IMG/VR virus record: IMGVR_UViG_3300028883_000508
Span: 1 to 62,645 of that record
Reading direction: 5' to 3' (one strand)
Source: a virus
Length of the DNA stretch: 62,645 nucleotides
Shown here: positions 2,691 to 57,565 of the stretch, piece by piece
Numbering within the stretch: the first letter of the stretch is position 1
Layout of the letters: every line of letters begins with the position of its first letter
Notes under the pieces: generated by a model
The model's database searches: none
Told to the model about the DNA's origin: nothing
Seen by the model: the letters and a program-made list of their open reading frames with translations, nothing else
Translations under genes and position numbers: made by a program

Positions 2691-2712
2691 CACTATTATA
2701 TAATTTAATTTA

Positions 2713-4701: not shown

Positions 4702-4712
4702 TTTTTCTCCTT

Positions 4713-16948: not shown

Positions 16949-19120
16949 TTATTTCCTTATTAATATAGACTCAATAGCAGCACCTACCTTACCTACCATT
17001 TGATAATATTCACATAATTCTTTTTGAACAGGATAATCATACCATCTATCTAAATGAGTCTTTTTTTTACTTTCTTCATATTTTCTTACATTACATCTCA
17101 AACATGAACCAGCTATACATTGTTGGCATTCTTCAGGTTCAATATGATTATTTTCATAAAGACTATTTGCTTTCTGTATACTATTTATAAAATTTTTATC
17201 AAAAATATTTGTGTATTTAAGATCATTAGAACATCTTGAATAAATTGCACCATGACAATTATATACTTCTCCATTAGTATCTATACATGCCATACTTTTT
17301 CCAGTAGCACAAAAAGCTTTATTACTTCTAAATATATTTGACAAAAAATATTTATGTTTTCTATAAAATTCTATTTCTTTTGTAGCTATTCCAATTAAAT
17401 ATTCTTCTATTATTTCTTTATTTTTTTCAAATTCTACATCATAATAGTCCATAGTTAAAGAATATTTTATTTTAGGACCATATATACTATGTAATTTTTC
17501 AAAATCTTCCCATGATTGAATTATAAAATTATAATTTTTCCAAGTTAAAGTAGATTTTAATCCATATTCAATACCATAACGATGTAATTCATTTATAGCA
17601 TTTTTTACAATATCAGAAGTAGATTTACCTTTTTTATCTTTTCTAAGTTTATCGTGAATTGGATTTCCATCATAAGATACTTGAACAGTTAGTTTTTTTA
17701 TATTAGAATCAATAAAAGGCTGTTCTTTTAATCTTCTATAGGTAGGCATCATTTCATTTGTAGTTGAACCATTAGTATATATAAAGAAAGCTATTCTTAT
17801 ATCTTTTCTGAATGTTTCCATTAAAGCTTTACATAATGGCATATTGAGAGTAGGTTCTCCCCCCCATAATATAAGTTTTATACCAGAATATTGTGATTTA
17901 AACCATTCAGATGCTAATAATTCTTTTATTCTTTTAGTAAGAATTTTTATATCTAAAAGATTTTCTTTAAGAATATGATTTTTCTCAAAACAATTATGAA
18001 CAGCAAATCCATTAGCTATATATGTTCCACTTTCTGTTTCTATATTATAAACTTTTTTAATTCCTAAATTTTCTATTTTTTTTATCTTTTCACTATTTAA
18101 AAGTTTATTATCATATATAACTTCAAATCCTTTTCTTTTAATAGATGGTTGTGTTATCTGTATAAATTTTATTCTATCAAAATATTTGCAAAATCTAATT
18201 GATTTACAAATATTATTTTCTTCTTTAAATTCTATGGATAATTTATTTAATCCATCTTTTATTTCATTAATAATATTTTCATCTGTATTATAAATTCTTA
18301 TAAAACCTTTTTGATGAGAACCTTCAGCATCAAATATACCTGATAAAAATCCACATAAGTATTCATATGTTTTATTTTTTCTAAAATTATTATTTATTAA
18401 AAAATTTAATTTTTCATATGTATCTCTTTTTCCAGAAAATATTGCTTCGGATATTATATTATGTTTTTTTGATATTTCAAAATCTCTTAATACATAATTA
18501 ATCTTAATATCATCTAAATATTTTTTAGTTCTTTCTATAGGTTCTTTATCTTTTAAAGCTAATCTAAAAAGAAATATATCATATTCTGGCCCATGATGAT
18601 TTTCTTTATAATTTTTTAAAGTTCCATCTCCTAATATAATACCTAATAAATATCCAATTTTATAATCATAGTTTATAGGACATGGTTTATTTTCATCATA
18701 CCATATACCCATTACTTTTTGGTTAATTTTATAATCACCAGCTTCTTTCATTCCATAATTATGATTACTTCTATTATTATATATTCGATGATTTTTTGTT
18801 ATATTAAGAAATTTATTATTTTCAAGAGTTATTCTTATTACTTCATCTTCTCTTTCAAATAAATTTAAAACTTTGGCAGGTTTTATTTTACGATGTTTAT
18901 ATTTTTCTTTATATTCATCAAAACCAAGTACTTCATCACCAATTTTTATATCTTTTATTTCTTTAATAGAAAAATCAGACATAAAAATTTTAGAATCATC
19001 TGTTAGGCAATAAGTACACCTAAAATTACATTTTTGAGTAGTAGTTATTTCTAATCCATATATTCCTTTCTGTATTTCACAATCTTTTTTCGATTCTTTT
19101 CTCAAATCTGTTAATTTCAT
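16949..19120 (-). CDS. Radical SAM/SPASM enzyme containing an intein
   Basis: The 723-residue precursor consists of an N-extein (1-37), an intein (38-376) and a C-extein (377-723). After splicing the enzyme is about 384 residues. The joined motif reads CNFRCTY-C, the CxxxCxxC that binds the catalytic [4Fe-4S] cluster, so the intein sits exactly before the third ligand Cys377. Further radical SAM motifs are ILWGGEPTLN and IYTNGST. The C-terminus is a SPASM-type domain (ACIDTNGEVYNCHG, ECQQCIAGSCLRC) with auxiliary cluster cysteines. Relatives mature peptides or sulfatases. The adjacent Cys-tailed protein is a candidate target. The overlap with the upstream gene is 44 bases. Confidence 0.88.
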   Translation of the reverse strand: MKLTDLRKESKKDCEIQKGIYGLEITTTQKCNFRCTYCLTDDSKIFMSDFSIKEIKDIKIGDEVLGFDEYKEKYKHRKIKPAKVLNLFEREDEVIRITLENNKFLNITKNHRIYNNRSNHNYGMKEAGDYKINQKVMGIWYDENKPCPINYDYKIGYLLGIILGDGTLKNYKENHHGPEYDIFLFRLALKDKEPIERTKKYLDDIKINYVLRDFEISKKHNIISEAIFSGKRDTYEKLNFLINNNFRKNKTYEYLCGFLSGIFDAEGSHQKGFIRIYNTDENIINEIKDGLNKLSIEFKEENNICKSIRFCKYFDRIKFIQITQPSIKRKGFEVIYDNKLLNSEKIKKIENLGIKKVYNIETESGTYIANGFAVHNCFEKNHILKENLLDIKILTKRIKELLASEWFKSQYSGIKLILWGGEPTLNMPLCKALMETFRKDIRIAFFIYTNGSTTNEMMPTYRRLKEQPFIDSNIKKLTVQVSYDGNPIHDKLRKDKKGKSTSDIVKNAINELHRYGIEYGLKSTLTWKNYNFIIQSWEDFEKLHSIYGPKIKYSLTMDYYDVEFEKNKEIIEEYLIGIATKEIEFYRKHKYFLSNIFRSNKAFCATGKSMACIDTNGEVYNCHGAIYSRCSNDLKYTNIFDKNFINSIQKANSLYENNHIEPEECQQCIAGSCLRCNVRKYEESKKKTHLDRWYDYPVQKELCEYYQMVGKVGAAIESILIRK
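17993..19009 (-). mobile_element. Intein with LAGLIDADG endonuclease, in the radical SAM gene
   Basis: Residues 38-376 of the host protein. It begins CLTDDSKIF, has a TKNH block-B-type motif near residue 108, and ends in ETESGTYIANGFAVHN with Cys as the +1 residue. Two LAGLIDADG-like helices are present (IGYLLGIILGDG at about 155-166 and YLCGFLSGIFDAEG at about 254-267). It looks full length, so both splicing and homing could be active. Confidence 0.9.
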
Positions 19121-25459: not shown

Positions 25460-28294
25460 TTATATATCACATGATCCTGTACTGCAAGTTCTTTCTTCTT
25501 GATCTTGTATTATATTACCTTCCTTTATATATTTTTTTATTTCTTTTTTAGTTAATGGATTTAATATCTGTCCTTCTCTTGAACCATCAACATAAACAGT
25601 ACATCCTTTTAAATCTCTAATATACTCAAGTAGTAAATTACTTAATTGTTCTGATTTAAATTCTTTTGGGCAATTAATAGTTTTTGATACAGCACCATCA
25701 ACATATCTTTGAACTGCTACTTGTGTTTCAAAATGATCTTCAGGTTTTAAATTAAAACTATCAACATACCAATCTGGTGTTTTTTCATTATTTTCTATTA
25801 TTTTTTTATAGATGGGATGAATATATGCTCTATCACTTATCTCATCATGCCTTAGATATGCTTTACAGAATAATGGTTCAATGCTACTTGTTACTTCTGG
25901 TAGTAATGATATAGTTCCAGTAGGTGCTATGGCAAGCAATGTAACATTTCTAATTCCATATTTTTTAATATCCATTCTTGTTTTTGCTGGTAATGATTTA
26001 ATGAAGTGTGCTTTTGAATACTCTCTACTATCAAATTTTGGGAAAGGTTCTTTTTCTTCTGCAAGTTTAATGGAAGACTCATAAGCAAAATTTCTTATAT
26101 TCTCCATTAAAGTATTAGTGACTCTTATTGCTTCTTGTGATCCATATTTAACCCCCTTTGAAAATAAATACTCAGCAAGGCCCATAACACCTAATCCAAT
26201 TCTTCTGCCATCAAATGCTTTACGTTTTACATCTTCAATAACATATCTATTTACTTGAATAATATTATCTAAAAATCTAACAGCATTATGAACTGTTTTT
26301 TCCATTAATTGCCAATTAGTATTAGTTTTTCCTGTAATAAAATTTGGTAATACTAAACTACCAAGACAGCAAACCCCATGAGCACCTAATGGAACTTCTC
26401 CACAAGGGTTGGTACTATTATGAACAACAATACCATTAGCTATTAAAGAATGTGTAACATTAGTTTCAACATCATATACTTCTTGTTCTCCTAAAGACTT
26501 AATAGATTTAACTTTAAACATTCCATAATATTTTTCATTCCATATACTTCCAAATTCATAATCATTTAAAATATTACTTTTTTCTGAATGTTTACTACCA
26601 ATTAATTTTTTAAAAGCCATACATGATAATTTTCTACTAATATTAACAGTATATGCAGTAAAAAGTTTTTCATTTAATTTTGATATCCTTGATCCAATAG
26701 ATGATGGAATACCAAATTCATTTAACATTATTTGTATTCTTTCTGCTATATTTTTCTTTGATGTTACAAGAGTTATTTTTTTACCTTTTCCTGTATTTCC
26801 ATTACCAACTCTTTGTATACTACCATCTGAATCATATAAACCAGAAATAAAACCACGTTTAAAACTTGGAGATTCTTGTAGAACATCATCTGATATAAAT
26901 TTACTGCTTCTTCTTGTTCCTCTCATATATCCATATTCATTTACATCACAATAATAACCCCATCTTTTAAAATACTCAACCACATCTTTAGATGAAGTTG
27001 TTAATTCAAAAGATTTACTTCCATTAGAACTTCTATGCCAATTTGTATGTCTACCTGAAAGAATTAAATTATTAATTTTTGTTTCAACAAAATTCATCAT
27101 ATCTTCTTCATTTTCATTAAAACAAAAACCATATTGTGTTGTATTATTATTTTTACAAATCCATCCATCTCCAACTAATAAACCAAGTAAATAACCATTA
27201 TCAAATTCTTTTTCATTTTCTAAATTATTGACAAAATGTTGAGAAATAGAATTTTGAACATACATATAATCTTCTTTGACTTTTAAATTTTTTACTTCTT
27301 TCCATCCATCTTTTGTCCATACTTTATGATTATCTGTAAGTTTTATTTTTTGATTATTTTGAAGTTTAATTTCAAATATTTCTTTTACACCTGATTTAAA
27401 ACCAATTCCATCTTCAATAAATGTTCCTTGAGAACCAATAACTCTTAAATCAGATATTGTTTTTACTTTCTTATCTACCAAATCTTTGATAGGAATAAGC
27501 CCTTTGGTAGTTGAAATAAGAGTATCACCAGTAAAACAAAGGATAGGATCAAAATAATAGCTGTTATTTGATCTAAGATTATCCCAATTAATTAATCCTG
27601 GTTCTGCACATTTAACCATATTAGTTAAAATTAAATCCCATATTTCTCTTGCTTTAAGTGTAATCCATTGTTTATTTCCCCATTTTAAATTCCAATCACT
27701 ATCTGCTTCCACAGCTTCAAGAAAATCTTCTATTACTCCAACTGAAATATTGAAGCAATTAAGTTCTCCATCTACTAATTTTGCATTTATGAATTTAATG
27801 ATATCTGGATGGGTTACAAGCATCATAGCTAATGCAGCAGCACGTCTAGCTCCACCAGTTTTAATACAATTAGCACCTGCATTTGCCCATTTTAGAAATG
27901 AAATTGGTCCTGAAGATTCTCCACCTTTTTGAATAATAGGTGCATTTTCTGGTCTTAAAAAGGATGCATTGCATCCAACTCCCCCACCTTCCGACCAAAG
28001 AACTCCACAATTTTTTTGAAAATCACCAATTTGATCCATTGAATCTTCTAATGGTTCAACATAACAATTAAATAATGATCCTCTTGGTCTTCCTATATTT
28101 CTTAAAATTCTTCCACCTGGAAGAAATAACATATTGTATACATCTGAAGCAAAAATATCAGTCCATTCTTTAAAATTTGGTTCTATTTGTGCTCCACCTA
28201 TACCAACTCTTTCTGATAATTCTTGCCATGTTTCATTTTCATACATAGCATATCTACTTTTTAAAATAATATTCGAATTTTTACTTAAAACCAT
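25460..28294 (-). CDS. nrdJ: Class II (B12-dependent) ribonucleotide reductase with intein
   Basis: The 944-residue precursor splits into an N-extein (1-252), an intein (253-626) and a C-extein (627-944), giving a 570-residue enzyme after splicing. RNR motifs include GGRILRNIGRPRGSLFNCYV, KTGGARRAAALAMM, STNPCGEVPLG right after the intein (active-site Cys), LLAIAPTGTISLLPEVTSSI and the C-terminal redox pair CSTGSC. These match the short NrdJ type, which uses adenosylcobalamin and needs no small subunit, so the phage depends on host B12. It makes deoxynucleotides together with dCMP deaminase and dNMP kinase encoded here. Confidence 0.9.
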   Translation of the reverse strand: MVLSKNSNIILKSRYAMYENETWQELSERVGIGGAQIEPNFKEWTDIFASDVYNMLFLPGGRILRNIGRPRGSLFNCYVEPLEDSMDQIGDFQKNCGVLWSEGGGVGCNASFLRPENAPIIQKGGESSGPISFLKWANAGANCIKTGGARRAAALAMMLVTHPDIIKFINAKLVDGELNCFNISVGVIEDFLEAVEADSDWNLKWGNKQWITLKAREIWDLILTNMVKCAEPGLINWDNLRSNNSYYFDPILCFTGDTLISTTKGLIPIKDLVDKKVKTISDLRVIGSQGTFIEDGIGFKSGVKEIFEIKLQNNQKIKLTDNHKVWTKDGWKEVKNLKVKEDYMYVQNSISQHFVNNLENEKEFDNGYLLGLLVGDGWICKNNNTTQYGFCFNENEEDMMNFVETKINNLILSGRHTNWHRSSNGSKSFELTTSSKDVVEYFKRWGYYCDVNEYGYMRGTRRSSKFISDDVLQESPSFKRGFISGLYDSDGSIQRVGNGNTGKGKKITLVTSKKNIAERIQIMLNEFGIPSSIGSRISKLNEKLFTAYTVNISRKLSCMAFKKLIGSKHSEKSNILNDYEFGSIWNEKYYGMFKVKSIKSLGEQEVYDVETNVTHSLIANGIVVHNSTNPCGEVPLGAHGVCCLGSLVLPNFITGKTNTNWQLMEKTVHNAVRFLDNIIQVNRYVIEDVKRKAFDGRRIGLGVMGLAEYLFSKGVKYGSQEAIRVTNTLMENIRNFAYESSIKLAEEKEPFPKFDSREYSKAHFIKSLPAKTRMDIKKYGIRNVTLLAIAPTGTISLLPEVTSSIEPLFCKAYLRHDEISDRAYIHPIYKKIIENNEKTPDWYVDSFNLKPEDHFETQVAVQRYVDGAVSKTINCPKEFKSEQLSNLLLEYIRDLKGCTVYVDGSREGQILNPLTKKEIKKYIKEGNIIQDQEERTCSTGSCDI
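26417..27538 (-). mobile_element. Intein with LAGLIDADG endonuclease, in the nrdJ gene
   Basis: Residues 253-626. It starts CFTGDTLIST, has a TDNH block-B motif at about 320, and ends VYDVETNVTHSLIANGIVVH with terminal Asn and Ser as +1. The endonuclease helices are YLLGLLVGDG and FKRGFISGLYDSDG. Insertion is two residues before the NPCGE loop, a classic RNR intein hot spot. Confidence 0.92.
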
Positions 28295-30846: not shown

Positions 30847-31380
30847 TTATATTACCATCCCTATTTCCCTTATATCATCTGGTTTCACTATATCAAAAAA
30901 ATCCTCTAAATCGTAAAGGAAACAGCTTCTAAGAGCATTTTCTTTGTTCCATGATATACTGATATGATTTAAATTTTTAAGTTTGATATTCAGCCTCTCT
31001 TGTGTATATTTATCTATTCCTACTATTCTTTTCCTGCCTTTTTTTCTATAAATTAACATTGGATGCTTTTTTGCTTTATTAGCATCATTACATGATTGTT
31101 TCCAAAATTCTTCAATGCCAAATTTAGTTGTTGTAAAATGTTGCCAAAAAGATGTACTTGGATATCCATTTTTACATTCAACACTAAAAATATCTATAAA
31201 AAATTTAGAATCAGGATGTAAATATGTTATATCTCCTGTCATATGATAATTTTCAATATGAACAGTAGCTAATCCACCACTAGCATCTTGTCTCCAAAAC
31301 ATATATGGTTTTGTTTTACCTGTCAACCATTTTGTTAAAAATTTAGAAATATTTCTTTCAAAATCCCCACCTTTTGCCAT
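30847..31380 (-). CDS. PD-(D/E)XK nuclease-like protein
   Basis: 177 residues. Elements of a PD-(D/E)XK fold appear in order: GGDFERNISKFLTKWL (helix with Glu), FWRQDASGG, GDITYLHP (Asp), then FSVECKNG (ExK). This suggests a metal-dependent DNA endonuclease, perhaps for Holliday junctions or DNA repair and packaging. A TATAAATA late box lies 33 bases upstream, so it is expected late, when junction resolution and packaging occur. Exact family not assigned. Confidence 0.6.
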   Translation of the reverse strand: MAKGGDFERNISKFLTKWLTGKTKPYMFWRQDASGGLATVHIENYHMTGDITYLHPDSKFFIDIFSVECKNGYPSTSFWQHFTTTKFGIEEFWKQSCNDANKAKKHPMLIYRKKGRKRIVGIDKYTQERLNIKLKNLNHISISWNKENALRSCFLYDLEDFFDIVKPDDIREIGMVI

Positions 31381-31434: not shown

Positions 31435-31469
31435 AAAATAGGAAGATTGATTACCAATCTTCCTATTTT
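31435..31469. terminator. Strong bidirectional terminator after the Ubl operon
   Basis: A 15-bp perfect stem (core GGAAGATTG / CAATCTTCC) with a 5-nt loop, flanked by an A-run that becomes a U-tract on minus-strand RNA. It closes the ubiquitin-like operon. A second perfect 8-bp hairpin (GGTTATAT / ATATAACC, 31470-31491) follows directly. Confidence 0.9.
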
Positions 31470-31813: not shown

Positions 31814-33136
31814 CTACTTTTTTTCAATTTGATTATAAGGATAAGCATCTCCATTATTTGAAAAATGATATCTCTTTCCATGAGTAGTAGTTACAGATAC
31901 AGGATTAGTAGTTTTACTAAGATATTCAATAGGCTTATCGTCTACCTTTCCATCTATAATTTGTTGTGTATTATCACTCATAGTTTTTAGAAAAAATTCA
32001 TTTTTCAATTGTTTTTCTTCATCAGTCGGTTTTTCTTTTTTTGGTTTTACTTTTGCTTTAACTGTAATAAGACCACCACAAGGAGTTTTTACTCTTGCTA
32101 TACCAACTATATTAAACCCCCCTGTTTTCCTATTTCTACCTGCCAAAAGACTTAAATTATGATTGCTATTGATAAATGCATTATCATGTCCACTAAAAGA
32201 TGGATTATTTTCATCTCCTGCTCCCATTTCATGATGGGAATGAATTACACCAATAATAGATAGTTTATTAAATTCCTCATTATTAACTTTATCAACAAGA
32301 ACACTAGATGTTCTTTGATCAGGAAGATAAAGATCATTTACATGATATACATCATCTTTTACTTCACCAATAAGATAAGCAAGCCACTCTCTTGCACCTG
32401 CCCATTTCATGTACATCATTGCTTTTGTTTTTGCTTGTTTATTCATAAAAACTTCAACAAATTTTTTGACTTTACTGCAAGCAGTAACACGATCAATTTC
32501 TACTTCCCAAAATGTTTCTTGTTTTTTAAATTGATCCCACATTAAAGGTTGTTTTGTTTTTTTAACTTTACCAAAACCAAAACCAGGAAATTTTTGTGGA
32601 ATATTCGATTCATTATTTTTATCTAAATCAAAATCATTTTCAGTTAATTCTTCTATCGGATTTTCATTTCTAATTTTTTCTTGTTTTTCAAACCATACAG
32701 TATCACTATTTTCATCAAGTACTTTTCCAGTTATCATATAGTGATACTCGTTTAGTATATTTCTTACTTGATTCAATTCCAATCCAAATGCAATTGCAAT
32801 ATCTTGGATAGACCACCCACTTTCATTTGCCATACTTATAATTTGTATTTCAATTTTATCAGGTGTAACAGATTTATCATTTTTCATATGATTTACCATT
32901 CCTTTCATTCTTTCTTTTGTTTTTTGTAATTTATTATTTAATTTTCTTTTACGTTTCATTTTATTTTTATGTTCTTTTCGAACTCTTTGAACATGTCTTT
33001 CAGAAACTTGAAGTTCATTAACAATAATACTAGTAGGTGTGTTTACATCTTTTTCAAGATACTCAATAATAGATTGTTTTTTATTAACATAACCTTTCAA
33101 TTTTAAATCCTTTCTCAATTGTTTAATATACCCCAT
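31814..33136 (-). CDS. HTH-JAB (JAMM) metalloprotease, putative deubiquitinase of the Ubl cassette
   Basis: 440 residues. Two helix-turn-helix-like segments lie near residues 32-55 (IIVNELQVSERHVQRVRKEH) and 107-131 (WSIQDIAIAFGLELNQVRNI), then a linker, then a JAB/MPN+ domain. The zinc motif is complete: Glu250 (AREWLAYLIGE), His299 and His301 (GVIHSHH), Ser315 and Asp318 (SGHD). JAB enzymes in Ubl cassettes cut Ubl precursors or conjugates. The ATG at 33136 lacks a binding site and lies in a promoter palindrome. A TTG at 33100 preceded by AAAGGA is an attractive alternative start, twelve residues shorter. It is the last gene of the cassette, followed by a strong terminator. Confidence 0.85.
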   Translation of the reverse strand: MGYIKQLRKDLKLKGYVNKKQSIIEYLEKDVNTPTSIIVNELQVSERHVQRVRKEHKNKMKRKRKLNNKLQKTKERMKGMVNHMKNDKSVTPDKIEIQIISMANESGWSIQDIAIAFGLELNQVRNILNEYHYMITGKVLDENSDTVWFEKQEKIRNENPIEELTENDFDLDKNNESNIPQKFPGFGFGKVKKTKQPLMWDQFKKQETFWEVEIDRVTACSKVKKFVEVFMNKQAKTKAMMYMKWAGAREWLAYLIGEVKDDVYHVNDLYLPDQRTSSVLVDKVNNEEFNKLSIIGVIHSHHEMGAGDENNPSFSGHDNAFINSNHNLSLLAGRNRKTGGFNIVGIARVKTPCGGLITVKAKVKPKKEKPTDEEKQLKNEFFLKTMSDNTQQIIDGKVDDKPIEYLSKTTNPVSVTTTHGKRYHFSNNGDAYPYNQIEKK

Positions 33137-33163
33137 GATATCACATCATGGGGTATATGTCAA
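33126..33163 (-). promoter_or_regulatory. Promoter overlapped by a 14-bp palindrome at the JAB start
   Basis: On the minus strand TTGACA (33163-33158), a 17-base spacer and TATCAT (33140-33135) form a near-consensus promoter. A 14-bp perfect inverted repeat (33126-33139 / 33145-33158, core ATACCCCATGAT) covers the spacer, the -10 box and the annotated ATG. It looks like an operator, perhaps for the HTH part of the JAB protein itself. As RNA it would hide the ATG. Confidence 0.6.
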
Positions 33164-33171
33164 TTCTTTTT

Positions 33172-33759
33172 TTACCTATCAAATCGAAATAAATGTTTAA
33201 CTGAAGAAATACATTCAGCATTAGGATATTTCATGATTTTTGCAACCGCAAGAGCAGCAACTATAACAGCAGGAACAACCCATGATGGAACTACTGTATA
33301 TCCATTGGTAGATTCCCCCCATTCAGAAACAGTATTATGAATCCCAAATCCTTCTCCATCATACCCTGCCTTAAAATATTTTGATCCCATTTTTTTAGCA
33401 ATGGCTTGATTTTCAATTTGTGATTTTCCATCATCCGTACAATCAACAACCCAATCAAATCCACTTGTAATATCAGAGAATTTAAATGGATAAGAATAGA
33501 CAGTAGCTTCATCTCTTAAAGATATAATAGCCATTTTTGTAATATCTGCTTTGTTTTTTCCAAGATATTTATATGGAATATCAAGACGATTGAGATTATG
33601 TTCTTCTAGAATGTCAGGATCAAATAATTCAAGATGATCTACCCCACTCATTGCAAGAAATTTAGCTACCCAATATCCAATACCACCACAACCAACAACA
33701 GCAACTTTTTTAGGATGATTTAATTTAAGCTTTTCTTGCCTATTATACAAATCAGACAT
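33172..33759 (-). CDS. E1/ThiF-like Ubl-activating enzyme
   Basis: 195 residues from ATG 33759, chosen for its GAAAGGA site. It is a minimal ThiF/MoeB/E1 adenylation domain: VVGCGGIGYWVAKFLA (nucleotide loop, residues 22-28), LFDPDILEEHNLNR (Asp47, Asp49 and Arg58, the ATP and Mg contacts), a KNKADITK lysine region and VVDCTDD (Asp106). It lacks the separate catalytic-Cys and ubiquitin-fold domains of eukaryotic E1. Cys107 or the C-terminal ECISS cysteine may act, or the Ubl may be passed directly to the E2 Cys. It would adenylate the Ubl C-terminal Gly. Its start overlaps no gene but lies 18 bases from the E2-like stop. Confidence 0.88.
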   Translation of the reverse strand: MSDLYNRQEKLKLNHPKKVAVVGCGGIGYWVAKFLAMSGVDHLELFDPDILEEHNLNRLDIPYKYLGKNKADITKMAIISLRDEATVYSYPFKFSDITSGFDWVVDCTDDGKSQIENQAIAKKMGSKYFKAGYDGEGFGIHNTVSEWGESTNGYTVVPSWVVPAVIVAALAVAKIMKYPNAECISSVKHLFRFDR

Positions 33760-33776
33760 TTTAAAAATCCTTTCAA

Positions 33777-34673
33777 TTAAATTGTTTGCCAAACATCTTC
33801 AAGTTCTTCATTATCTTCAAGTTCTACAGTAGATGGTTCTACTTCATCAACTTTTTTAACATTTCTGATTAATGTTTCTATCCTTGGTAAACCAGCAGGA
33901 TTTCTTATTGCAAGACTATTATTATTAATTGTTTCTAAAACAGCTTCAGCATCTTTAGCACACAACAAGATATCATCTGGATGATTCCATTTTTTATCAT
34001 ATTTCCAATTACCCCAACAATCACCATGCCCCATTTGATGATAATGCTGAAATGATGGTAATTGTAATCCTCTTGTTGTTGGTTTTTTTGTTGAAACAGA
34101 AGTTATTTTACTTCCTTTTGTTTTTATTAAAATAATCATATCTTTTTTCATTCTTGATACAAGTCTAGAAGGAATTGGTTTTCTAACTTTATCACCTACA
34201 TTTGTATCATTATATACAATAAACCTTGGATTATATACACCTCTATAAATCCAAGTCAATTCATCATTTTCTTTTCCTTTAACAATAGAAAGTCCTTTAA
34301 GTAAATGAGCTTCTGTTATATCAGGCATCATAGCTGCTTTACTATACTTTTTTTTCATTTGAGCTTCTTTTCTATCAAGCTCTTGTTGTTTTTGTTGATG
34401 TAATATCAATAATTGATTGATTTTAGAATTGATTTTATCTCTAATTCTTTGCTGTTGAGTATTTAACTTTTCTTTGAACTCTTTACGCAACTTTTCTTCA
34501 ACATTTTCATCACTGACAATTTCTAAATCAGTAAATTTAAATGTTTTTCCACCGAAAGTTAAAGAAAGACCTTCTGCTTTAAGATCATCAACTGAAATTG
34601 ATTCAAGTTCAGCTAACATTTCTTCATGTCTTGACTTTACTTCAGTATCAAAAGTTGAGAATACATCAGACAT
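33777..34673 (-). CDS. E2-like (UBC-fold) conjugating protein with N-terminal coiled coil
   Basis: 298 residues from ATG 34673, which has GGAG upstream (the frame also opens at TTG 34688). Residues about 60-115 form a charged coiled coil. The C-terminal part has the sequence shape of prokaryotic E2 proteins: strands with FIVYNDTNV and MIILIKTKG, then PSFQHYHQMGHGDCWGNW with a His cluster and the candidate catalytic Cys219, then a helix NHPDDILLCAKDAEAVLETI and NN. Position between Ubl and E1 genes supports the call strongly. The fold is read by eye, and a structure prediction should settle it. Confidence 0.68.
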   Translation of the reverse strand: MSDVFSTFDTEVKSRHEEMLAELESISVDDLKAEGLSLTFGGKTFKFTDLEIVSDENVEEKLRKEFKEKLNTQQQRIRDKINSKINQLLILHQQKQQELDRKEAQMKKKYSKAAMMPDITEAHLLKGLSIVKGKENDELTWIYRGVYNPRFIVYNDTNVGDKVRKPIPSRLVSRMKKDMIILIKTKGSKITSVSTKKPTTRGLQLPSFQHYHQMGHGDCWGNWKYDKKWNHPDDILLCAKDAEAVLETINNNSLAIRNPAGLPRIETLIRNVKKVDEVEPSTVELEDNEELEDVWQTI

Positions 34674-34720
34674 TATATATAACTCCAATCAAAAGTATTT
34701 TTTTTTATTATAGATAGTTT

Positions 34721-34744
34721 AATGGGGAGATAATTCTCCCCATT
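34721..34744. promoter_or_regulatory. Hairpin between Ubl and E2-like genes
   Basis: A perfect 10-bp stem (AATGGGGAGA / TCTCCCCATT) with a TAAT loop and no following T-tract. It could be an mRNA stabiliser that lets the Ubl be made in excess over the conjugating enzymes, or a weak attenuator. Confidence 0.5.
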
Positions 34745-34766
34745 CCAAACTAACTAACTTTAATTA

Positions 34767-35045
34767 CTATCCTGCTTCATCAAATGGCCTAATTTCAACA
34801 GACATTTGATCGGTTACTTCAGCAGGTGCCGAACTTGGTCGAACTTCAGTACCATTCAACCACACCTTGAATTTACCGAAACCTGCTTGCAATGCAACAG
34901 ATTGAACGGATTGAAGGAAAGGTGCTCCAACTTCAAGGTTCTGATAAGAACCATTAACAAGAATACTTGCTCCATCGGGCCTATCAGTGGTAGGAACATC
35001 ATCCATATCATCATTACCCATGTCACCGTCAAAAAAATCATTCAT
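34767..35045 (-). CDS. Ubiquitin-like (beta-grasp) protein
   Basis: 92 residues. An acidic flexible head (about 1-25, rich in Asp) is followed by a compact beta-grasp-like unit: SILVNGSYQNLEV (two strands), FLQSVQSVALQAG (helix), FKVWLNGTEV (strand) and MSVEIRPFDEAG (last strand) ending in a C-terminal Gly. That Gly end and the following E2-, E1- and JAB-like genes identify it as the modifier of a conjugation cassette. The terminal Gly is exposed without processing. It has the best promoters of the operon and its own AAGGAG site, fitting high expression. Similarity to ThiS/MoaD-type sulfur carriers cannot be excluded. Confidence 0.75.
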   Translation of the reverse strand: MNDFFDGDMGNDDMDDVPTTDRPDGASILVNGSYQNLEVGAPFLQSVQSVALQAGFGKFKVWLNGTEVRPSSAPAEVTDQMSVEIRPFDEAG

Positions 35046-35101
35046 CTTAATTTCTCCTTTTTTAGTTAATTTGGTTCGAAAACCATTTTTATTTTAACAA
35101 T

Positions 35102-35131
35102 CTTATATCACACTTTACACAAGATTGTCAA
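35102..35131 (-). promoter_or_regulatory. Proximal promoter of the Ubl operon
   Basis: TTGACA (35131-35126), 18-base spacer, TATAAG (35107-35102). The -35 box is preceded by AAAAAAGTTG, the same sequence as at the distal promoter. Confidence 0.6.
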
Positions 35132-35162
35132 CAACTTTTTTAATCTCAATTTCTAAAAAACA

Positions 35163-35191
35163 ATCATATTCTAAATATAATTGTTTGTCAA
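35163..35191 (-). promoter_or_regulatory. Distal promoter of the Ubl operon
   Basis: TTGACA (35191-35186), 17-base spacer, TATGAT (35168-35163), close to ideal for sigma70. A 17-base element (AAAAAAGTTGTTGACAA) is repeated at both promoters. Confidence 0.65.
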
Positions 35192-35200
35192 CAACTTTTT

Positions 35201-35419
35201 TTATAAATTTTTAATTGCCCATTCTAAAGCTTCATCCAAACTATATGGATTATTAAAATTATAACCATTATGAAATTTAACTTTTATACCATCTTTATAC
35301 ATTATAAATCCATTATGATTGTTAAAATAATATTGATTCCTTACTTTATAAACAACACCTTCAACCTTTTTTTGTTTGGATTTGGCTTTATTTTTTCCTG
35401 TAAGTCCAATTGTATTCAT
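35201..35419 (-). CDS. Unknown small basic protein
   Basis: 72 residues. A basic start (GKNKAKSKQKKVEGVVYKVR) is followed by an aromatic, Asn-rich beta region and a helical end (SLDEALEWAIKNL). Not recognised. It lies between the clamp gene and the Ubl promoters. Confidence 0.5.
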   Translation of the reverse strand: MNTIGLTGKNKAKSKQKKVEGVVYKVRNQYYFNNHNGFIMYKDGIKVKFHNGYNFNNPYSLDEALEWAIKNL

Positions 35420-35550: not shown

Positions 35551-36288
35551 TTACAAATTTTCCCTAGAAATCAATGAATATTTTTCTTCATTATTCTCTG
35601 AAAATGCATAAATACAACCTAATCCTTGATCTTCTTGATATGCTATTTTTAAGGTAAAGTTTTTATCAATATCCATTTCAATACAATGAAAAAAATTAAC
35701 CATATCATTATAAACATATGCTAATGATATATTTTCCATTTCAATATCATCCAGTTCAAAATTAACATCGTTTGAATATCTATTGGTCTTATCAGATGTT
35801 TCAATATACATTTTATTATTATGTACTCCGAAATATACTTTACCAAATCTTGATCCAATTTTCTTTATTTTTTCAAATTTATCTATAAATTCTTGATCAA
35901 TTTTCATTTCAAAAAACCAATCTACATTTTGTACATCATTACTTCCAAGTCTTTTTACAGCAGCAGATGAACAAAATCCAACTTTAATATTTTGTTCTCC
36001 ATCTCTAAATTTCATAAACATATCTGTTAATGAAAGTTCTACTTCTTCATTATCAAATAATGCAATAAATGGAATTAAATTATTACTTGGATCACCAAAA
36101 TTAAAAACTAGTTCTTCATTAGTATCCAATACATTATTTTCTACATTCAAAATTGAAATAGAAGTATTGTTTCCATTCAATGAATTACATTGAATTCTAT
36201 CACTAAATCTTAACTGCAATGTTTCTATACCAAGATTCAGAGTAGCTTTTGTTACCACATCTTTAAAATTTTTGATATTTATTCTCAT
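35551..36288 (-). CDS. 45: DNA polymerase sliding clamp (T4 gp45-like)
   Basis: A 245-residue clamp (T4 gp45 is 228). The fold is suggested by repeated strand-helix units and the typical ETLQLRFSDRIQCNSLNG start, with FEMKIDQEFIDKFEKIKKIG at the domain junction. Context is decisive: the two clamp-loader genes lie directly upstream and overlap it by 26 bases. In T4 the same clamp also activates late transcription at TATAAATA promoters, which this phage seems to use. Confidence 0.82.
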   Translation of the reverse strand: MRINIKNFKDVVTKATLNLGIETLQLRFSDRIQCNSLNGNNTSISILNVENNVLDTNEELVFNFGDPSNNLIPFIALFDNEEVELSLTDMFMKFRDGEQNIKVGFCSSAAVKRLGSNDVQNVDWFFEMKIDQEFIDKFEKIKKIGSRFGKVYFGVHNNKMYIETSDKTNRYSNDVNFELDDIEMENISLAYVYNDMVNFFHCIEMDIDKNFTLKIAYQEDQGLGCIYAFSENNEEKYSLISRENL

Positions 36289-36658
36289 ATTTCCCCCTTA
36301 CATTTTTATTAATAATATATGTTAAAATCATCTTACATTCTCTTGTTGATAATGTAGGATTAAATTCTTTTAATTTTTCAATTCTTTTTTTCATCTTATC
36401 ATCTTCTTTTCGTTTCTTTATAAAATTTAGATATCTTTTACCTACTGGAATAGAACTCATATAATAATCATATACAATTTCATCAGGAAGTAAAAATAAA
36501 TATTTATTAATATCATCTACTTTTGAAATTAATTCTTTATTCATACTCAAGAATAAAGAAAGAATATATGATCCTGCTATTTTCTTATCATAAGAAACTG
36601 TTTTTCTTTTACTTTGTATTTGATTCAAGAATGTGAAAAGATTTACTTTATCTGCCAT
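36263..36658 (-). CDS. 62: Clamp loader small subunit (T4 gp62-like)
   Basis: A 131-residue helical protein (T4 gp62 is 187) between the gp44-like and clamp genes, overlapping both. The NLFTFLNQIQSKRKTVSYDK start followed by YDYYMSSIPVGKRYLNFIKK fits small clamp-loader subunits of T4-like phages. The call is mostly from position and size. Confidence 0.7.
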   Translation of the reverse strand: MADKVNLFTFLNQIQSKRKTVSYDKKIAGSYILSLFLSMNKELISKVDDINKYLFLLPDEIVYDYYMSSIPVGKRYLNFIKKRKEDDKMKKRIEKLKEFNPTLSTRECKMILTYIINKNVRGKYENKYQKF

Positions 36659-37560
36659 TATATAACCTTATTATAAATAAAATCAACTATCATTCTCATA
36701 AAATTGATTTCTTTTATTGCTATTGTTGCATCTCTATAAAGATGTTCTCCTATTCCAAGTATTGCCCCCCCAGGTTCTTTGAATTCTCCTACATTATCAT
36801 ATATATATTCATAAAGTTCTGGATAAGGAATATAATTTGATCTAAGTTCTTCTCTAATAGATTCAATATCTTTTTTCAGAATCAATTTAAATATTTTTTC
36901 AAATAAAACTTCTGAAGCATATATTTTTGATCCTGTAAGTTCACCATTAATAACATTTTCTTGTAAAACATTAATACATTTTCTAATATCAGGATATGTT
37001 TTTTTAATTATTTCAAGAACAGTTTTTCCTTCAAATTTAATTTTTTCTTGTCTAAGAATATTGAGACAAAATTTACCAATATCTTTTTTAGGTGGATTAT
37101 CAAATTTAATAACTTGGCATCTACTTTTTATTTCTGGTATCACATAATTTTCATAATTACAAATCAAAATAAATCTACAAATTCTATATGTATCTTCCAT
37201 TAATTGTCTTAAAAGTTTTTGTGCTCCTTGAGGACCACTTGTTAAAGAATCACATTCATTCAATACAACTACTTTCATATCTTTCATACACATTGCAGTA
37301 GCAAATGGTCTAATTTTATTTCTAAAAACATCAATACCATTTTCATCAGAAGCATTAATCCACATATAATCAATATTATCTTTCTCAATAAGAAGATTAG
37401 TAAAACATCCTTTACCTATTCCTGGTGTTCCATATAAAAGTAAATTAGGTAATTCTTCCATAGATTTATTCAATTTACCTTTAATTTCTTCATTAAGTAT
37501 TATATCATTGAAATTTTTTGGTTGATATTTATATACCCACAAATTTTTTCTTAAATCCAT
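36658..37560 (-). CDS. 44: Clamp loader ATPase subunit (T4 gp44-like)
   Basis: A 300-residue AAA+ protein (T4 gp44 is 319). It has WVYKYQPKNFNDIIL at the start, a P-loop YGTPGIGKG (44-51), Walker B VVVLNECDSL (98-106), sensor-1 ILICNYENY and the clamp-loader signature IKSRC (144-148). Two catalytic positions are unusual: Gly51 in place of the Walker A Thr/Ser, and Asn101 in place of the first Walker B acid (NECD instead of DECD or DExD). It loads the clamp on primed DNA. The genes follow its own TTAACA/TATAGT promoter. Confidence 0.88.
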   Translation of the reverse strand: MDLRKNLWVYKYQPKNFNDIILNEEIKGKLNKSMEELPNLLLYGTPGIGKGCFTNLLIEKDNIDYMWINASDENGIDVFRNKIRPFATAMCMKDMKVVVLNECDSLTSGPQGAQKLLRQLMEDTYRICRFILICNYENYVIPEIKSRCQVIKFDNPPKKDIGKFCLNILRQEKIKFEGKTVLEIIKKTYPDIRKCINVLQENVINGELTGSKIYASEVLFEKIFKLILKKDIESIREELRSNYIPYPELYEYIYDNVGEFKEPGGAILGIGEHLYRDATIAIKEINFMRMIVDFIYNKVI

Positions 37561-48616: not shown

Positions 48617-51409
48617 ATGAAATTAAGTAATATGTTGAAGAAGGAATCTCAAGTTATTTCTAATGATGATAAAGTAGGAAATAGAAAGGATTGTACTGAT
48701 TTATTGATATCAGCAAGATTTGGTGAAGATCATTTACATCATATTTTACCTGCACAACCTGTAGTAGATCAAATTGTAGATGATTTATTGGCTTATACTT
48801 CAGAAAAATTCAATAAAAACATTGGAAAATCATCTGATAAAAAAGAAGAAACAAATAAAGCACCAGAAGAAGTTATATTTCATAATAGACAAGCTTTTGG
48901 TGATATTCTAACTATGACTTGTGCTATAAGGGATTTTAAAGCTAAATTTCCAAAAACAAGAGTTGGTGTTCATACAACAGCTATGCATATTTGGGATAAC
49001 AATCCTCATATAGATCATTCATTCAGAATGGGATCATTATCATCTAATAAAGCTACAGTAAAAATTGGTCCTGGTTTTTTGACTAATAAATCAGGTTTAT
49101 GGGATTACCATATGGCAAATGCTTTTCGTATGGATATTCAAAATAAAATGAATCTTAAATTTACTCAAGGACCAATTAAACCTGATATTTGGTTTACTCA
49201 AGAGGAATATGATAGAAAACCTTTGATTGATGGTCCTTATTGGATTTTTATTTATGGTGGTGAACCTGGATGGCCTAGTAAACAATATCATAGATGGCAA
49301 GAGGTAATTGATATTTTAAAAGATGATATTCAGTTTGTTCAATTGGGTGTAAAGGGGCATCCATATCCAAGACTTAAAAATGTCATAGATTTTGTTGGTC
49401 GAACTGAAGATAGAAATACAGGTATAAGGGATCTATTTAATATTTTTCTTCATTCTCAAGGTTCTATGGGGCTTGTATCTATGCATATGCATCTTTCAGC
49501 GGCATTTAATAATCCTTGTGTTGTTTTAGCTGGTGGAAGGGAACCTGCTTCTTTTACTCAATATTATGGGCATCAATATGTACAAACTAATGGTGTATTG
49601 CCTTGTGTTGAAACAAAGGCATGTTGGGCTTGTAAACTTGAAGGATGTAAAAATTTAGTTGATCCAACTAATCCACCAACTGAAGGTCATAATACTTTAA
49701 AAATTCCTAAATGTGTTGATATTATTGATCCTGAAGAAATAGCTGAAGGTGTTAGAAAATATTATAAGGGTGGTAGACTTGAGTATGGAAAGAAAATTCC
49801 TAATAAATTTTTTAAAAATATAGTAAGAGAAAAGAAAATATTTAGTGTTCCTAAGACTGATAAAGTAGATAATTCTATTTTAAAGAATTATGGGTTTGAA
49901 TGGGGTGGGGGTAGTGTTACTAATAGAGATTGGTTATTTATGTGTGATGTTTTTAAAACATATAATGTCAAATCTGTTCTTGAATTTGGAGCAGGTTTAT
50001 CTACATTACTTATAGGAAATAAAATAGATACTGTTGTAACATTTGAAACACAAAAAGAATGGATAAAAAAGATAAGTGAATTAGCAACAGGAAGCAATAA
50101 TCATATTTTTCATTGGGATGGAAGAAATATTGATATAAATACTGATGATTTTAAAGATATACAATTTGATTTAGCTTTTGTGGATGGTCCTGCTGGTGGA
50201 CAAAATAGAGAATTTTCTACTAAATATGCATCTGAATTGTCTAATCTTGTTATTGTTCATGATGCTGGTAGGGAATGGGAAAGAAAATGGCAAGAAAAAT
50301 ATCTATCGAAAGATTTTAATATGGTTTCAAAAGGTGGGCATCGTTGTCATTTTTGGGTAAAAAAAGAAATATGTAATAAACAAAAGAAAAAACATGATGC
50401 AGAAGTAAAAGCAAAAATTGAAAATGATGATAGAAAATCTTTTAGAATGATTACAACATGTAGAGGATTTGGTGGTTCTGAAAGATCATCTCTTTTTATT
50501 ATGAATGATATGCTTAGTAGGGGATATAGAGTTGAACTTATTTCTACTGGTAATATTTCAGGTGAATATAAAAAGAATATTCCAAGTGATGTTATTGTAA
50601 GACCGTGGAATGATATGAAAGAACCTGTTGATATTGTTACTTTTTATGCTTCTGATACAATTTGGAATTATAATAAACCTCAATATCTTGATATAATGGA
50701 TAAATTGAATTGTAAGAGAAAAGTATTTATTTTAAACTATCAATTGGGTGGGGCAGGTAAAGTAGAATGGACAAAAAATTGGGATTTATATATGTTCCTT
50801 AATTCTACTAAAGAAAGTGAATTAAGAAAAGTATATCCTGATTTTAAATCAAAAATTCTTCCACCACCTACTGATTTAGATTCATTTTTCAAAATAAATG
50901 TTGATTATAATACTCCAATTAAACTTATAAGACATAATTCTCAAAAAGATGCTAAACATCCTGAATATACTAATGAATTGATTATACAGATTTTGGATGA
51001 AATAAGTGATAATATTCAGTTTTATTATATGCCAGCAAGAAGCACAACATTTAATCATCCTAATGTTCATAAGTTTAGAGTAAATCAAATTCCTGTACCT
51101 GAATTTTTATCTAATGGTAATTTATTTTGGTATCATTTACCACCTGGATATCAAGACCAAGGACCAAGAGTTATTATAGAAGCTATGGCTTGTGGATTGC
51201 CTTGTATTGGTGATAATTCTTATGGTGCTAAAGACAGGATTACTCCTGAAACTGGATGGTTATGTGATGATGTGAGTGATTATATTGAAGTAATAAAGGA
51301 AATAAATAATAATCCATCTGTTTTGAAACAGAAAGGTGAAGCTGCAAGAGAAAGAGCTAAAGCTGAATTTGTTCCTACAAGATGGGCAGATTGCATCATA
51401 GGGGAATAA
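48617..51409 (+). CDS. Trifunctional fusion: GT9-like, methyltransferase, GT4
   Basis: 930 residues. Domain 1 (about 90-390) is a GT9/heptosyltransferase-like GT-B unit (NRQAFGDILTMTCAIRDFKA, then SQGSMGLVSMHMHLSAAF). Domain 2 (about 425-590) is a SAM-dependent methyltransferase-like fold (VLEFGAGLSTLLIGNKIDTV, then LAFVDGPAGGQNREFST). Domain 3 (about 610-930) is a GT4 enzyme (TTCRGFGGSERSSLFIMNDM, then GPRVIIEAMACGLPCIGDNS with the EX7E motif). Having all three in one chain suggests stepwise sugar addition and methylation on one glycan. It opens the glycan island. Substrates unknown. Confidence 0.82.
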   Translation: MKLSNMLKKESQVISNDDKVGNRKDCTDLLISARFGEDHLHHILPAQPVVDQIVDDLLAYTSEKFNKNIGKSSDKKEETNKAPEEVIFHNRQAFGDILTMTCAIRDFKAKFPKTRVGVHTTAMHIWDNNPHIDHSFRMGSLSSNKATVKIGPGFLTNKSGLWDYHMANAFRMDIQNKMNLKFTQGPIKPDIWFTQEEYDRKPLIDGPYWIFIYGGEPGWPSKQYHRWQEVIDILKDDIQFVQLGVKGHPYPRLKNVIDFVGRTEDRNTGIRDLFNIFLHSQGSMGLVSMHMHLSAAFNNPCVVLAGGREPASFTQYYGHQYVQTNGVLPCVETKACWACKLEGCKNLVDPTNPPTEGHNTLKIPKCVDIIDPEEIAEGVRKYYKGGRLEYGKKIPNKFFKNIVREKKIFSVPKTDKVDNSILKNYGFEWGGGSVTNRDWLFMCDVFKTYNVKSVLEFGAGLSTLLIGNKIDTVVTFETQKEWIKKISELATGSNNHIFHWDGRNIDINTDDFKDIQFDLAFVDGPAGGQNREFSTKYASELSNLVIVHDAGREWERKWQEKYLSKDFNMVSKGGHRCHFWVKKEICNKQKKKHDAEVKAKIENDDRKSFRMITTCRGFGGSERSSLFIMNDMLSRGYRVELISTGNISGEYKKNIPSDVIVRPWNDMKEPVDIVTFYASDTIWNYNKPQYLDIMDKLNCKRKVFILNYQLGGAGKVEWTKNWDLYMFLNSTKESELRKVYPDFKSKILPPPTDLDSFFKINVDYNTPIKLIRHNSQKDAKHPEYTNELIIQILDEISDNIQFYYMPARSTTFNHPNVHKFRVNQIPVPEFLSNGNLFWYHLPPGYQDQGPRVIIEAMACGLPCIGDNSYGAKDRITPETGWLCDDVSDYIEVIKEINNNPSVLKQKGEAARERAKAEFVPTRWADCIIGE

Positions 51410-51411
51410 TT

Positions 51412-52011
51412 ATGGAAAATATTAGAAGTTCATATAAAGACAATGATTATGGTAATGTTTTTAGAGCATTAATTTTAGCTCAAAAACCAAATTTAGTTGT
51501 GGAATGTGGAGTTCTTGATGGATATTCAACATTTAATATAGGTCAAGCAATAAAATTTAATAGAGAAAAAAGAAATATAATTTGTTCTTTTTTTGCATAT
51601 GATCTTTGGGAAGATTATGAATATAAACATGGTGATTATTCTGAAGTAGAAAATATGTTAAATGAACAAGGATTGGATGATTATGTTTTTTTAACTGAAG
51701 GGGATGCTTTTTTTGTTTATAATGTATTTGAAGATAAATCAATTGATTTTCTTCATATGGATATTTCTAATAATGGGGATACTATTATTAAAACATTAGA
51801 ATTATGGGGGGATAAAATATCAGATAATGGTATAATTGCTTTTGAAGGTGGGTCTGAAGATCGTGATAATGTTGAATGGATGATTAAATATGGATTTCCA
51901 TCAATAAGGGAAGTATTAATTAATAATCCTATAGTATATGAAAATTGGGATGTTCAGATACTTGATTCATTTCCTTCAATGTCTTTATTGTTTCCTAAAA
52001 AGAGAAAATAA
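51412..52011 (+). CDS. SAM-dependent methyltransferase-like protein
   Basis: 199 residues from ATG 51412. It has LVVECGVLDGYSTFNIGQAI (SAM loop), AYDLWED and IDFLHMDISNNGDTIIKTLE, as in sugar or small-molecule methyltransferases of the MTase-24 kind. It begins two bases after the fused glycosyltransferase. Confidence 0.65.
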   Translation: MENIRSSYKDNDYGNVFRALILAQKPNLVVECGVLDGYSTFNIGQAIKFNREKRNIICSFFAYDLWEDYEYKHGDYSEVENMLNEQGLDDYVFLTEGDAFFVYNVFEDKSIDFLHMDISNNGDTIIKTLELWGDKISDNGIIAFEGGSEDRDNVEWMIKYGFPSIREVLINNPIVYENWDVQILDSFPSMSLLFPKKRK

Positions 52012-52205
52012 TGAATTACGATGATATTTTAGGAATATATGAGATATGTGAAAGATGTGGTGAAGAAGTGGGAGAAAAATATAGACAAAATACATTTTAT
52101 CCAAATGAAAATGATAATTGGGTTGTGTTATGTAAATTATGTAGAAAAGAAAATGATGAATATTGGGCTGAAATGTGGAGAGAATATTATAGTGGATGTT
52201 TATGA
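52011..52205 (+). CDS. Small zinc ribbon protein
   Basis: 64 residues. CERCGEEVG and CKLCRKEND form a two-CxxC ribbon, then an acidic aromatic tail. The ATG overlaps the previous stop (TAATG). Unknown function. Confidence 0.55.
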   Translation: MNYDDILGIYEICERCGEEVGEKYRQNTFYPNENDNWVVLCKLCRKENDEYWAEMWREYYSGCL

Positions 52206-52218
52206 GAGGTAAAAAATA

Positions 52219-52863: not shown

Positions 52864-52882
52864 TATAAAAAAGGAGAGTAAT

Positions 52883-53368: not shown

Positions 53369-53377
53369 GGGAAAACA

Positions 53378-54481: not shown

Positions 54482-54482
54482 A

Positions 54483-54959: not shown

Positions 54960-54978
54960 TGTTAAGGGATATTTTATT

Positions 54979-57318: not shown

Positions 57319-57493
57319 TATAGAAATTAAAGATTTAGGAATAAAAGCAGGAATGACGAGTAATCAAATAAACAAATTAAAAAATAAAAAAAGGAATAAT
57401 TTACTTAAAAAAGATATACCCAAAAAAGATATACCTAAAGTTAAAACAGAAAAACTACCTTCTGCCCGTATTTTAAATTTGAAAAAAGATTAA
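57311..57493 (+). CDS. Small basic protein, or N-terminus of the papain-like protease
   Basis: 60 residues from ATG 57311 (IEIKDLGIKAGMTSNQINKL, then KDIPKKDIPKVKTEKLPSAR). It ends in TAA, but the same frame stays open after the stop and leads into the protease (YDERDFKLSSIAYGLPTKKD). In many bacterial and viral C1-type proteases such a stretch precedes the catalytic domain. So it may be the front part of one gene split by a stop. Confidence 0.5.
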   Translation: MNNIEIKDLGIKAGMTSNQINKLKNKKRNNLLKKDIPKKDIPKVKTEKLPSARILNLKKD

Positions 57494-57565
57494 TATGATG
57501 AAAGAGATTTTAAATTATCTTCAATTGCATATGGTTTACCTACAAAAAAAGATTATACATCTCAA

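Follow-up and report, generated by a model that had tools for sequence, protein, structure and literature searches.

A predicted ubiquitin-like conjugation cassette next to the clamp genes of uncultured T4-like phages

Introduction

Bacterial ubiquitin-like (Ubl) systems with a tested role, Bil and CBASS Cap2, are host defences against phages. Here we describe a comparable gene set carried by a virus, found in a 62,645-base IMG/VR virus record (IMGVR_UViG_3300028883_000508, positions 1 to 62,645; this whole stretch is hereafter the window), which is likely a fragment and has 27% G+C. By PHROG matches, its proteins include a gp23-type head protein, a gp20-type portal, a gp44-type clamp loader and a gp32-type single-stranded DNA-binding protein, pointing to a T4-like phage as the source; T4 gene names were assigned by reading these matches. 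The set is composed of four predicted genes, and the reading tentatively favoured below is a Ubl conjugation/deconjugation system that would work with the phage replication module:

31814-35045, minus strand: cassette of Ubl, E2-like protein, ThiF/E1 and JAB, in this order and in one transcriptional direction
34767..35045, minus strand: candidate Ubl, a 92-aa ubiquitin-like beta-grasp protein with C-terminus ...RPFDEAG and an acidic, low-confidence N-terminus (AlphaFold, Foldseek, 37-sequence alignment)
33777..34673, minus strand: E2-like protein, 298 aa; a longer TTG-start version begins at 34688
33172..33759, minus strand: minimal ThiF/E1 of 195 aa, an adenylation domain read from the ATG that agrees with relatives (PF00899, E=3.7e-22)
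31814..33136, minus strand: JAB/JAMM metalloprotease, 440 aa, with an N-terminal helix-turn-helix (HTH) extension (Prok-JAB, HTH_23)

PRTRC modules, which are taken to equal row 6d of Iyer, Burroughs and Aravind (2006; PMC1779556), likewise carry separate genes for Ubl (protein C), an E2-like protein of E2 family D (protein B), JAB (protein A) and ThiF. They belong to mobile elements, in some cases with ssb or dnaN nearby, their E2 protein has an N-x(n)-C-x-G motif, and their JAB and E1 are related to those of the cassette by profile. Unlike the cassette, they are ordered C-F-B-A-ThiF, include ParB, E and F proteins, and have a Ubl that ends mostly in T/A-K-G and does not align with the cassette Ubl. 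Membership in PRTRC was rejected, the ThiF scoring 16.9 bits with NCBIfam TIGR03736 against a cut-off of 144.75, with the other PRTRC models unmatched and hhalign comparisons with PRTRC B (3 and 12 sequences) and C not significant. None of the companion ParB, E and F genes lies between or directly around the cassette genes.

Bil (BilABCD) also has Ubl, E2, E1 and JAB as four genes; BilA comprises two Ubl domains, BilB carries a C-E-H-H motif, and the E1, BilD, has two parts and includes a Cys domain (PMC11354881). In contrast, the cassette has a single 92-aa Ubl, an HYH..CWG motif and a one-domain 195-aa E1 lacking the Cys domain, so that neither the double-Ubl BilA nor the two-part E1 is present, in agreement with an earlier reading made from the sequence alone, which had noted that the layout is not that usual for Bil. 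CBASS Cap2/Cap3 and Bub share the E1, E2 and JAB activities and tolerate a Gly or Ala terminus (PMC10097602), but Cap2 fuses E2 with E1 and uses cGAS as the tag, whereas the cassette E1 and E2-like proteins are separate and the operon encodes no nucleotidyltransferase (CD-NTase); of the PADLOC E1-E2 models, the cassette matches the ThiF part only.

Among phages, crAss001 gp79-gp76 and related Bacteroides and Flavobacterium phage genes resemble the cassette in being phage-owned, in encoding a Ubl-like protein, a [YF]MHSH..C-x-G protein, JAB and ThiF, and in lying in a replication module. They differ in their order (Ubl-E2-JAB-E1) and in a large C-terminal extension on the Ubl, and profile matches of the crAss001 Ubl and E2 to the clamp-linked cassettes (lineage 1, defined below) were not significant. 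Phage lambda also has a Ubl (I) and a JAB (K) among its tail proteins, but this set lies within tail genes and lacks E1 and E2 (PMC1779556). The cassette is neither Bil nor CBASS nor, by the tests made, PRTRC, and is a variant among prokaryotic Ubl-E2-E1-JAB sets. In the open literature searched, neither a phage-borne E1-E2-Ubl cassette near a clamp gene nor the crAss set as such was found described, which is not proof of novelty.

Results

Co-inheritance of the cassette with the clamp and clamp-loader genes

As judged from sequence comparison, the cassette is co-inherited with the gp44 clamp-loader gene in a large group of uncultured T4-like phages. The minus-strand order in the window is gp44, gp62, gp45 clamp, a 72-aa open reading frame (ORF), Ubl, E2-like, ThiF and JAB, the genes preceding the cassette being:

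36658..37560, minus strand: gp44-type clamp-loader ATPase, conserved neighbour (PHROG 168, E=7e-64)
36263..36658, minus strand: putative gp62-type clamp-loader small subunit, conserved neighbour; position and profile kept across relatives, assigned from T4 gene order
35551..36288, minus strand: gp45-type sliding clamp, upstream conserved neighbour (PHROG 223, DNA polymerase processivity factor, E=2.7e-5), adjoining the cassette in 35/35 informative loci
35201..35419, minus strand: 72-aa ORF between clamp and cassette, not a system member; its sole match is itself, with none in relatives

Single-protein and alignment searches found relatives on nearly 50 IMG/VR contigs of up to 235 kb, of which some were almost identical. 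Cassette contigs were also found in two metagenome-assembled genomes labelled Thermoplasmata and Izimaplasma, and are taken to be phage contigs within those bins. A single-sequence search of viral contigs with the E2-like protein gave no match, and its relatives were found by the alignment-based search. In 50,697 phage isolate records, no relative of the window cassette was detected by DNA or E2, E1 gave distant ThiF matches only, and the single weak match in the isolate collection (MT836827) had no JAB neighbour in the 5.3 kb read. Thirty-eight loci were chosen, of which 35, mostly distinct, were informative. The clamp-linked cassettes, including that of the window, are referred to as lineage 1, and all conservation counts derive from 37 non-redundant sets.

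The order gp44-gp62-gp45-Ubl-E2-E1-JAB is kept in 35/35 informative loci, and all four ORFs lie at the place and on the strand previously read, which upholds the description of the cassette as four consecutive minus-strand genes. As for the other three loci, L075 reaches a contig end and L045 has a complete cassette with no clamp gene nearby. L010 (4375-7839) harbors E1 and JAB only, with recombinase, TnpB-like and HNH-like genes inserted just upstream and no E2 in the record. The constant position after the clamp loader and clamp, together with the replication neighbourhoods of several analogous sets, is the strongest signal in the data, and one that the sequence-only reading had missed.

Mean identity was 51% for E1, 48% for gp44, 41% for Ubl, 37% for gp45, 36% for E2 and 33% for JAB, E1 being conserved on a par with gp44. 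The cassette genes and the gp44 and gp45 genes had correlated distances (Mantel r 0.56-0.69; permuted maxima 0.17-0.35, 500 permutations). Wherever estimable, dN/dS was about 0.05-0.45, and for the cassette genes about 0.07-0.45. Together these values point to common inheritance and purifying selection. On the gp44 tree, the carriers cluster, and non-carriers are scattered or nested among them; nine members of the gp44 clade had no cassette in the downstream sequence examined, which for L110 and L136 covers a short stretch of about 1.5-3 kb. Because these absences are scattered, several losses or gains are needed to account for them.

Conserved features of the four cassette proteins

The AlphaFold model of the Ubl (mean pLDDT 82) has a beta-beta-alpha-beta-beta-beta core and a low-confidence C-terminal tail. 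Its best PDB matches by Foldseek were ThiS (top), SUMO, ubiquitin and MoaD, with probabilities mostly of 0.95-1.0 and E-values of 3.5e-3 or weaker, as expected of a small domain. The modelled fold and the exposed C-terminal Gly characterize this protein as a probable ubiquitin-like beta-grasp modifier, and the beta-grasp likeness seen from the sequence is supported; the Gly terminus read there also stands, corrected to a single Gly in the window C-terminus D-x-A-G. Counted from the sequences, the Ubls share the end [YF]-[DE]-x-[A/P]-G, where the terminal residue is Gly in 32/37, Ala in 4/37 and Ser in 1/37; for comparison, Cap2 systems use a Gly or Ala terminus (PMC10097602). The Ubl ends exactly at this motif in 19/37 sequences, and the remaining 18/37 carry 1-7 extra residues, a tail beyond the conserved Gly that suggests processing.

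The E2-like protein consists of an N-terminal hairpin, a long coiled coil (residues 56-112), a core with the motif and a following helix. The motif F-x-[H/Q]-Y-H-x(2-8)-C-W-G occurs in 37/37 sequences, with one invariant Cys (Cys219), so that a candidate active-site Cys after a His/Asn motif, as in E2 enzymes, is present in all members. For most of residues 120-270, the AlphaFold core reaches a confident pLDDT of 91-96, and Pfam E2 families match 0/37 members. The earlier reading of an E2-like HxH...GDCWG motif therefore holds for the motif, which proved invariant, and not for the ubiquitin-conjugating (UBC) fold, which was not confirmed despite the confident model; that reading had named a non-UBC structure of the 298-aa protein as grounds for abandoning it, and the structure search, a comparison limited to E2 types with a solved structure, returned no UBC match, which we take as a fold not confirmed. 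Since the confident model found no UBC counterpart, the label E2-like, which we favour, is given by motif and gene context rather than by a demonstrated fold. In the viral-model search, the top match was A0A1B0WLX5 (420 aa, probability 0.92), with a TM-score of just 0.24. The Fpv1 E2-like protein is also 420 aa in length, an agreement that was not used as evidence. In L022 (8240-9982), the E2-like gene is tandemly duplicated, with HYH..CWG intact in both copies. Neither the Ubl nor the E2-like protein had a credible match in Pfam, PHROGs, NCBIfam or PADLOC, and both families are thus unrecognised by the public models searched.

The ThiF/E1 matches the adenylation profile PF00899 and carries the ATP/Mg residues of the ThiF/E1 superfamily (GxGGxG, D-x-D, NxNR, K and DCTD, conserved in up to 37/37), as had been read from the sequence. 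At 195 aa, it lacks the separate catalytic-cysteine domain of canonical E1 enzymes (UBA1, Cap2, BilD), its sole near-invariant Cys lying inside the DCTD adenylation motif.

The JAB of the window matches Prok-JAB with E=0.0014, below the curated cut-off; 6/7 relatives match, the best at 1.9e-7, and the JAB profile matches Rpn11 weakly. The zinc motif of JAB/JAMM proteases, H-x-H-x(7-)-S-x2-D with an upstream E, is complete, which sustains the full zinc motif claimed previously: H-S-H-x7(+6)-S-x2-D is found in 37/37, the window carrying a 6-residue insert, and the upstream glutamate in 36/37 by pattern, the EWL/EWF pattern not picking up L043. The HTH-JAB fusion had been read as a departure from the usual Bil layout, but the HTH is restricted to close relatives and most relatives lack it; it is a local addition and not a system feature. 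Overall, the retention of the E2 motif, the Ubl end, the ATP-binding residues and the zinc ligands at identities down to ~24% is more than chance would give.

Analogous cassettes in other phages and plasmids

Neighbourhood regions of analogous cassettes were chosen by hand. The L045 cassette adjoins primase/helicase, exonuclease and DNA polymerase genes. A second phage lineage (L051-L054, e.g. L051 8957-11478) has the order Ubl-E2-E1-JAB, a Ubl with LDQA[G/K/S] and an E2-like protein with an FHT..CTG-type motif, and in L051 it lies upstream of helicase and primase genes. A third (L055 8032-11573, L056 8022-11426) comprises a Ubl-like protein that ends in AGF/AGI, a protein of 206-207 aa, an E2-like protein that is rich in Cys and has HPH..C[KL]G, E1 and JAB; no replication gene was recognised in the L055 neighbourhood. 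Cultured crAss-like and Flavobacterium phages contain the following sets of Ubl-like, E2-like, JAB and ThiF genes:

L167 (crAss001), 834-5244
L168 (DAC15), 1067-5244
L166 (Fpv1), 131-5163
L165 (cr111_1), 279-4154

The crAss001 set sits between primase and uracil-DNA glycosylase (UDG), resolvase and exonuclease genes, and that of cr111_1 between primase and UDG/exonuclease. Genes of the crAss001 type are annotated merely as hypothetical, metalloprotease or thiamine biosynthesis protein, and the crAss-type ThiF is matched by 77 phage records. In PRTRC plasmid modules, ssb (two) or dnaN (one, Anabaena) was nearby in 3/9 regions read. On the Anabaena cylindrica plasmid pANACY.02 (L101, 3851-8549), a PRTRC-like E2/JAB/ThiF set has a plasmid sliding clamp gene, dnaN, behind it.

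Profile comparison indicates homology between the lineage 1 Ubls and those of L051-L054 (P=2e-7). At the matching E2 position, the motifs are FHT..CTG (L051-L054), HPH..C[KL]G (L055, L056), HSH..C-x-G (crAss-like) and N..C-x-G (PRTRC-B), and profile alignments place Cys on Cys between lineage 1 and L051-L054 (P=1.3e-3), between L051-L054 and PRTRC-B (P=0.01) and between L055-L056 and PRTRC-B (P=0.011).

Transcription signals and other genes of the window

Further features near the cassette are:

35102..35198, minus strand: two tandem promoter-like elements sharing AAAGTTGTTGACAA; TTGACA 35191-35186 with TATGAT 35168-35163, and TTGACA 35131-35126 with TATAAG 35107-35102
31435..31469, minus strand: intrinsic terminator-like hairpin with a 16-pair stem, a loop of 3 and a T-tract, ~345 bp behind JAB
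30847..31380, minus strand: PDDEXK endonuclease (PHROG: RusA-like resolvase), downstream, kept in some relatives only (PF24608, E=6e-24; PHROG 244)

Two exact copies of AAAGTTGTTGACAA lie upstream of Ubl at a spacing of 60 bp, no other exact copy occurs in the window, and the first site scores 11/12. The paired sites are consistent with the two consensus promoters proposed earlier, but promoter-like sites as a class are no more frequent than chance predicts in such AT-rich DNA (42 found against 50 expected in this region). The terminator assigned earlier to the end of the unit as a 15-bp stem is present as a hairpin with a T-tract, with 16 pairs and at the distance given above. An Rfam scan revealed no RNA family near the cassette.

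Elsewhere in the window, a radical SAM protein is split by an intein with a LAGLIDADG domain (16949-19120, minus strand), and the large subunit of a ribonucleotide reductase, which has LAGLIDADG/homing-endonuclease matches in its interior, probably also contains an intein (25460-28294, minus strand). A cluster on the plus strand (48617-58267) encodes a glycosyltransferase, an aminotransferase, several methyltransferases, a sulfotransferase-like protein and a papain-like protease.

Discussion

The explanation that we tentatively prefer is a phage-encoded Ubl conjugation/deconjugation system working with the phage DNA-replication (clamp) module. Its two parts differ in strength: the conserved residues make the conjugation chemistry probable, and, given that chemistry, the linkage leaves a replication-linked target at about even chances. 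We favour a reversible Ubl tag on proteins of replication or host takeover over counter-defence or sulfur transfer. In such a system, JAB would trim the short tails observed after D-x-A-G on about half of the Ubls, and ThiF, with its complete ATP-binding residues, would adenylate the Gly (or Ala) terminus. Because the E1 lacks a catalytic-cysteine domain, the Ubl would presumably be handed without an intermediate to the E2-like protein at its invariant Cys, and this protein would join it to a substrate amine, its coiled coil possibly serving as target or partner binder and no E3 being present in the cassette; JAB could then reverse the tag. The fixed genetic linkage suggests that the substrates belong to the apparatus for phage replication or late transcription, or are host proteins displaced by it. 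This explanation draws on the order in 35/35 loci, the Mantel co-inheritance, the invariant Cys with HYH, the complete JAMM motif and the predicted Ubl fold, and on analogous sets near replication genes in L045, L051, cr111_1, crAss001 and some PRTRC plasmids.

Several observations weigh against it. No UBC-fold relative of the E2-like model was found in PDB or viral-model structure searches, and the best profile-profile alignment of the lineage 1 E2-like protein with PRTRC-B covers the C-x-G motif only and is not significant. Among the lysines of gp45, gp44 and gp62, none clearly sets cassette carriers apart. The cassette-clamp linkage may reflect expression timing rather than a target. Some gp44-clade members have no cassette, which is therefore dispensable, and L132 (5317-6621) has intact Ubl and E2-like genes with no E1 or JAB in its 14 kb locus and an unrelated gene instead. 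The lysine comparison thus gave no support for the clamp itself, or for gp44 and gp62, as targets: the best position, gp45 194, has lysine in 31/36 carriers and 3/8 non-carriers, and the window has Asn there.

Interference with a host Ubl defence (Bil, CBASS Cap2/Cap3 or Bub) could take the form of JAB stripping host tags while the phage Ubl and E2 compete, or of the cassette tagging and inactivating a host defence protein. It would suit a phage-borne set whose E1 and JAB fall in the same superfamilies as the Bil and Cap proteins, and the several separate absences fit an accessory role. We nevertheless regard it as doubtful, given a fixed site in a core replication operon over large divergence rather than in a variable accessory region, a full cassette whose own Ubl exceeds the needs of deconjugation, and analogous sets adjoining replication genes in unrelated phages and plasmids. 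The sequence-only reading had suggested that the phage might block or reverse a host Ubl defence or modify virion proteins, and the analysis brought no positive evidence for either role.

The next explanation keeps the Ubl and departs from E2 function, the 298-aa protein being another cysteine enzyme or a Ubl-binding scaffold, with the adenylated or thioesterified Ubl used in another reaction. Both the high-confidence model without a UBC match and the failure of Pfam E2 families to match any of the 37 members would be accounted for, but it is unlikely in view of the invariant [H/Q]YH-x(n)-C-W-G, of analogous motifs in the matching gene of other cassettes and of the several profile comparisons, individually weak, that put Cys on Cys.

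A sulfur carrier appears less likely still. In this case a ThiS/MoaD-like Ubl would form a thiocarboxylate after activation by ThiF, JAB would free its C-terminus, and the E2-like protein would be a sulfur-transfer enzyme for a modified nucleotide or metabolite. ThiS is the top Foldseek match of the Ubl, the E1, which lacks a Cys domain, belongs to the minimal ThiF/MoeB type, and ThiS-JAB-ThiF sulfur clusters are known; on the other side, the related PRTRC sets have a predicted E2-type protein (PMC1779556 for both). No rhodanese, cysteine desulfurase or sulfur-assimilation gene was seen among the scanned window proteins, which are a part of the ORFs of a record that is probably a fragment. We know of no role for the E2-like motif in sulfur relays. 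Finally, use of a processed Ubl in head or tail building, as proposed for lambda tail proteins I and K and modelled on the Ubl-JAB pairs of lambdoid tail modules (PMC1779556), is highly improbable for a cassette that has E1 and E2-like genes absent from the lambda set and that lies beside clamp genes in every clamp-linked locus, not adjoining structural genes.

If the preferred explanation of a replication-linked conjugation system is correct, a near-core phage Ubl cassette beside the clamp would represent the chemistry of the bacterial defences serving the virus's own replication, and would speak to the question of why DNA replication and ubiquitin-like tags come together in eukaryotes. A wider proposal, that several unrelated phage groups (the clamp-linked T4-like phages, the crAss-like and Flavobacterium phages, and the phages of L045 and L051-L054) and the PRTRC plasmids all regulate their own DNA replication by Ubl conjugation, is somewhat doubtful. 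With crAss001, DAC15 and the Flavobacterium phages in culture and carrying analogous genes, the target of a phage Ubl can be asked for directly. Were the wider proposal true, Ubl regulation of phage and plasmid replication would be the prokaryotic counterpart of the ubiquitination and SUMOylation of PCNA.

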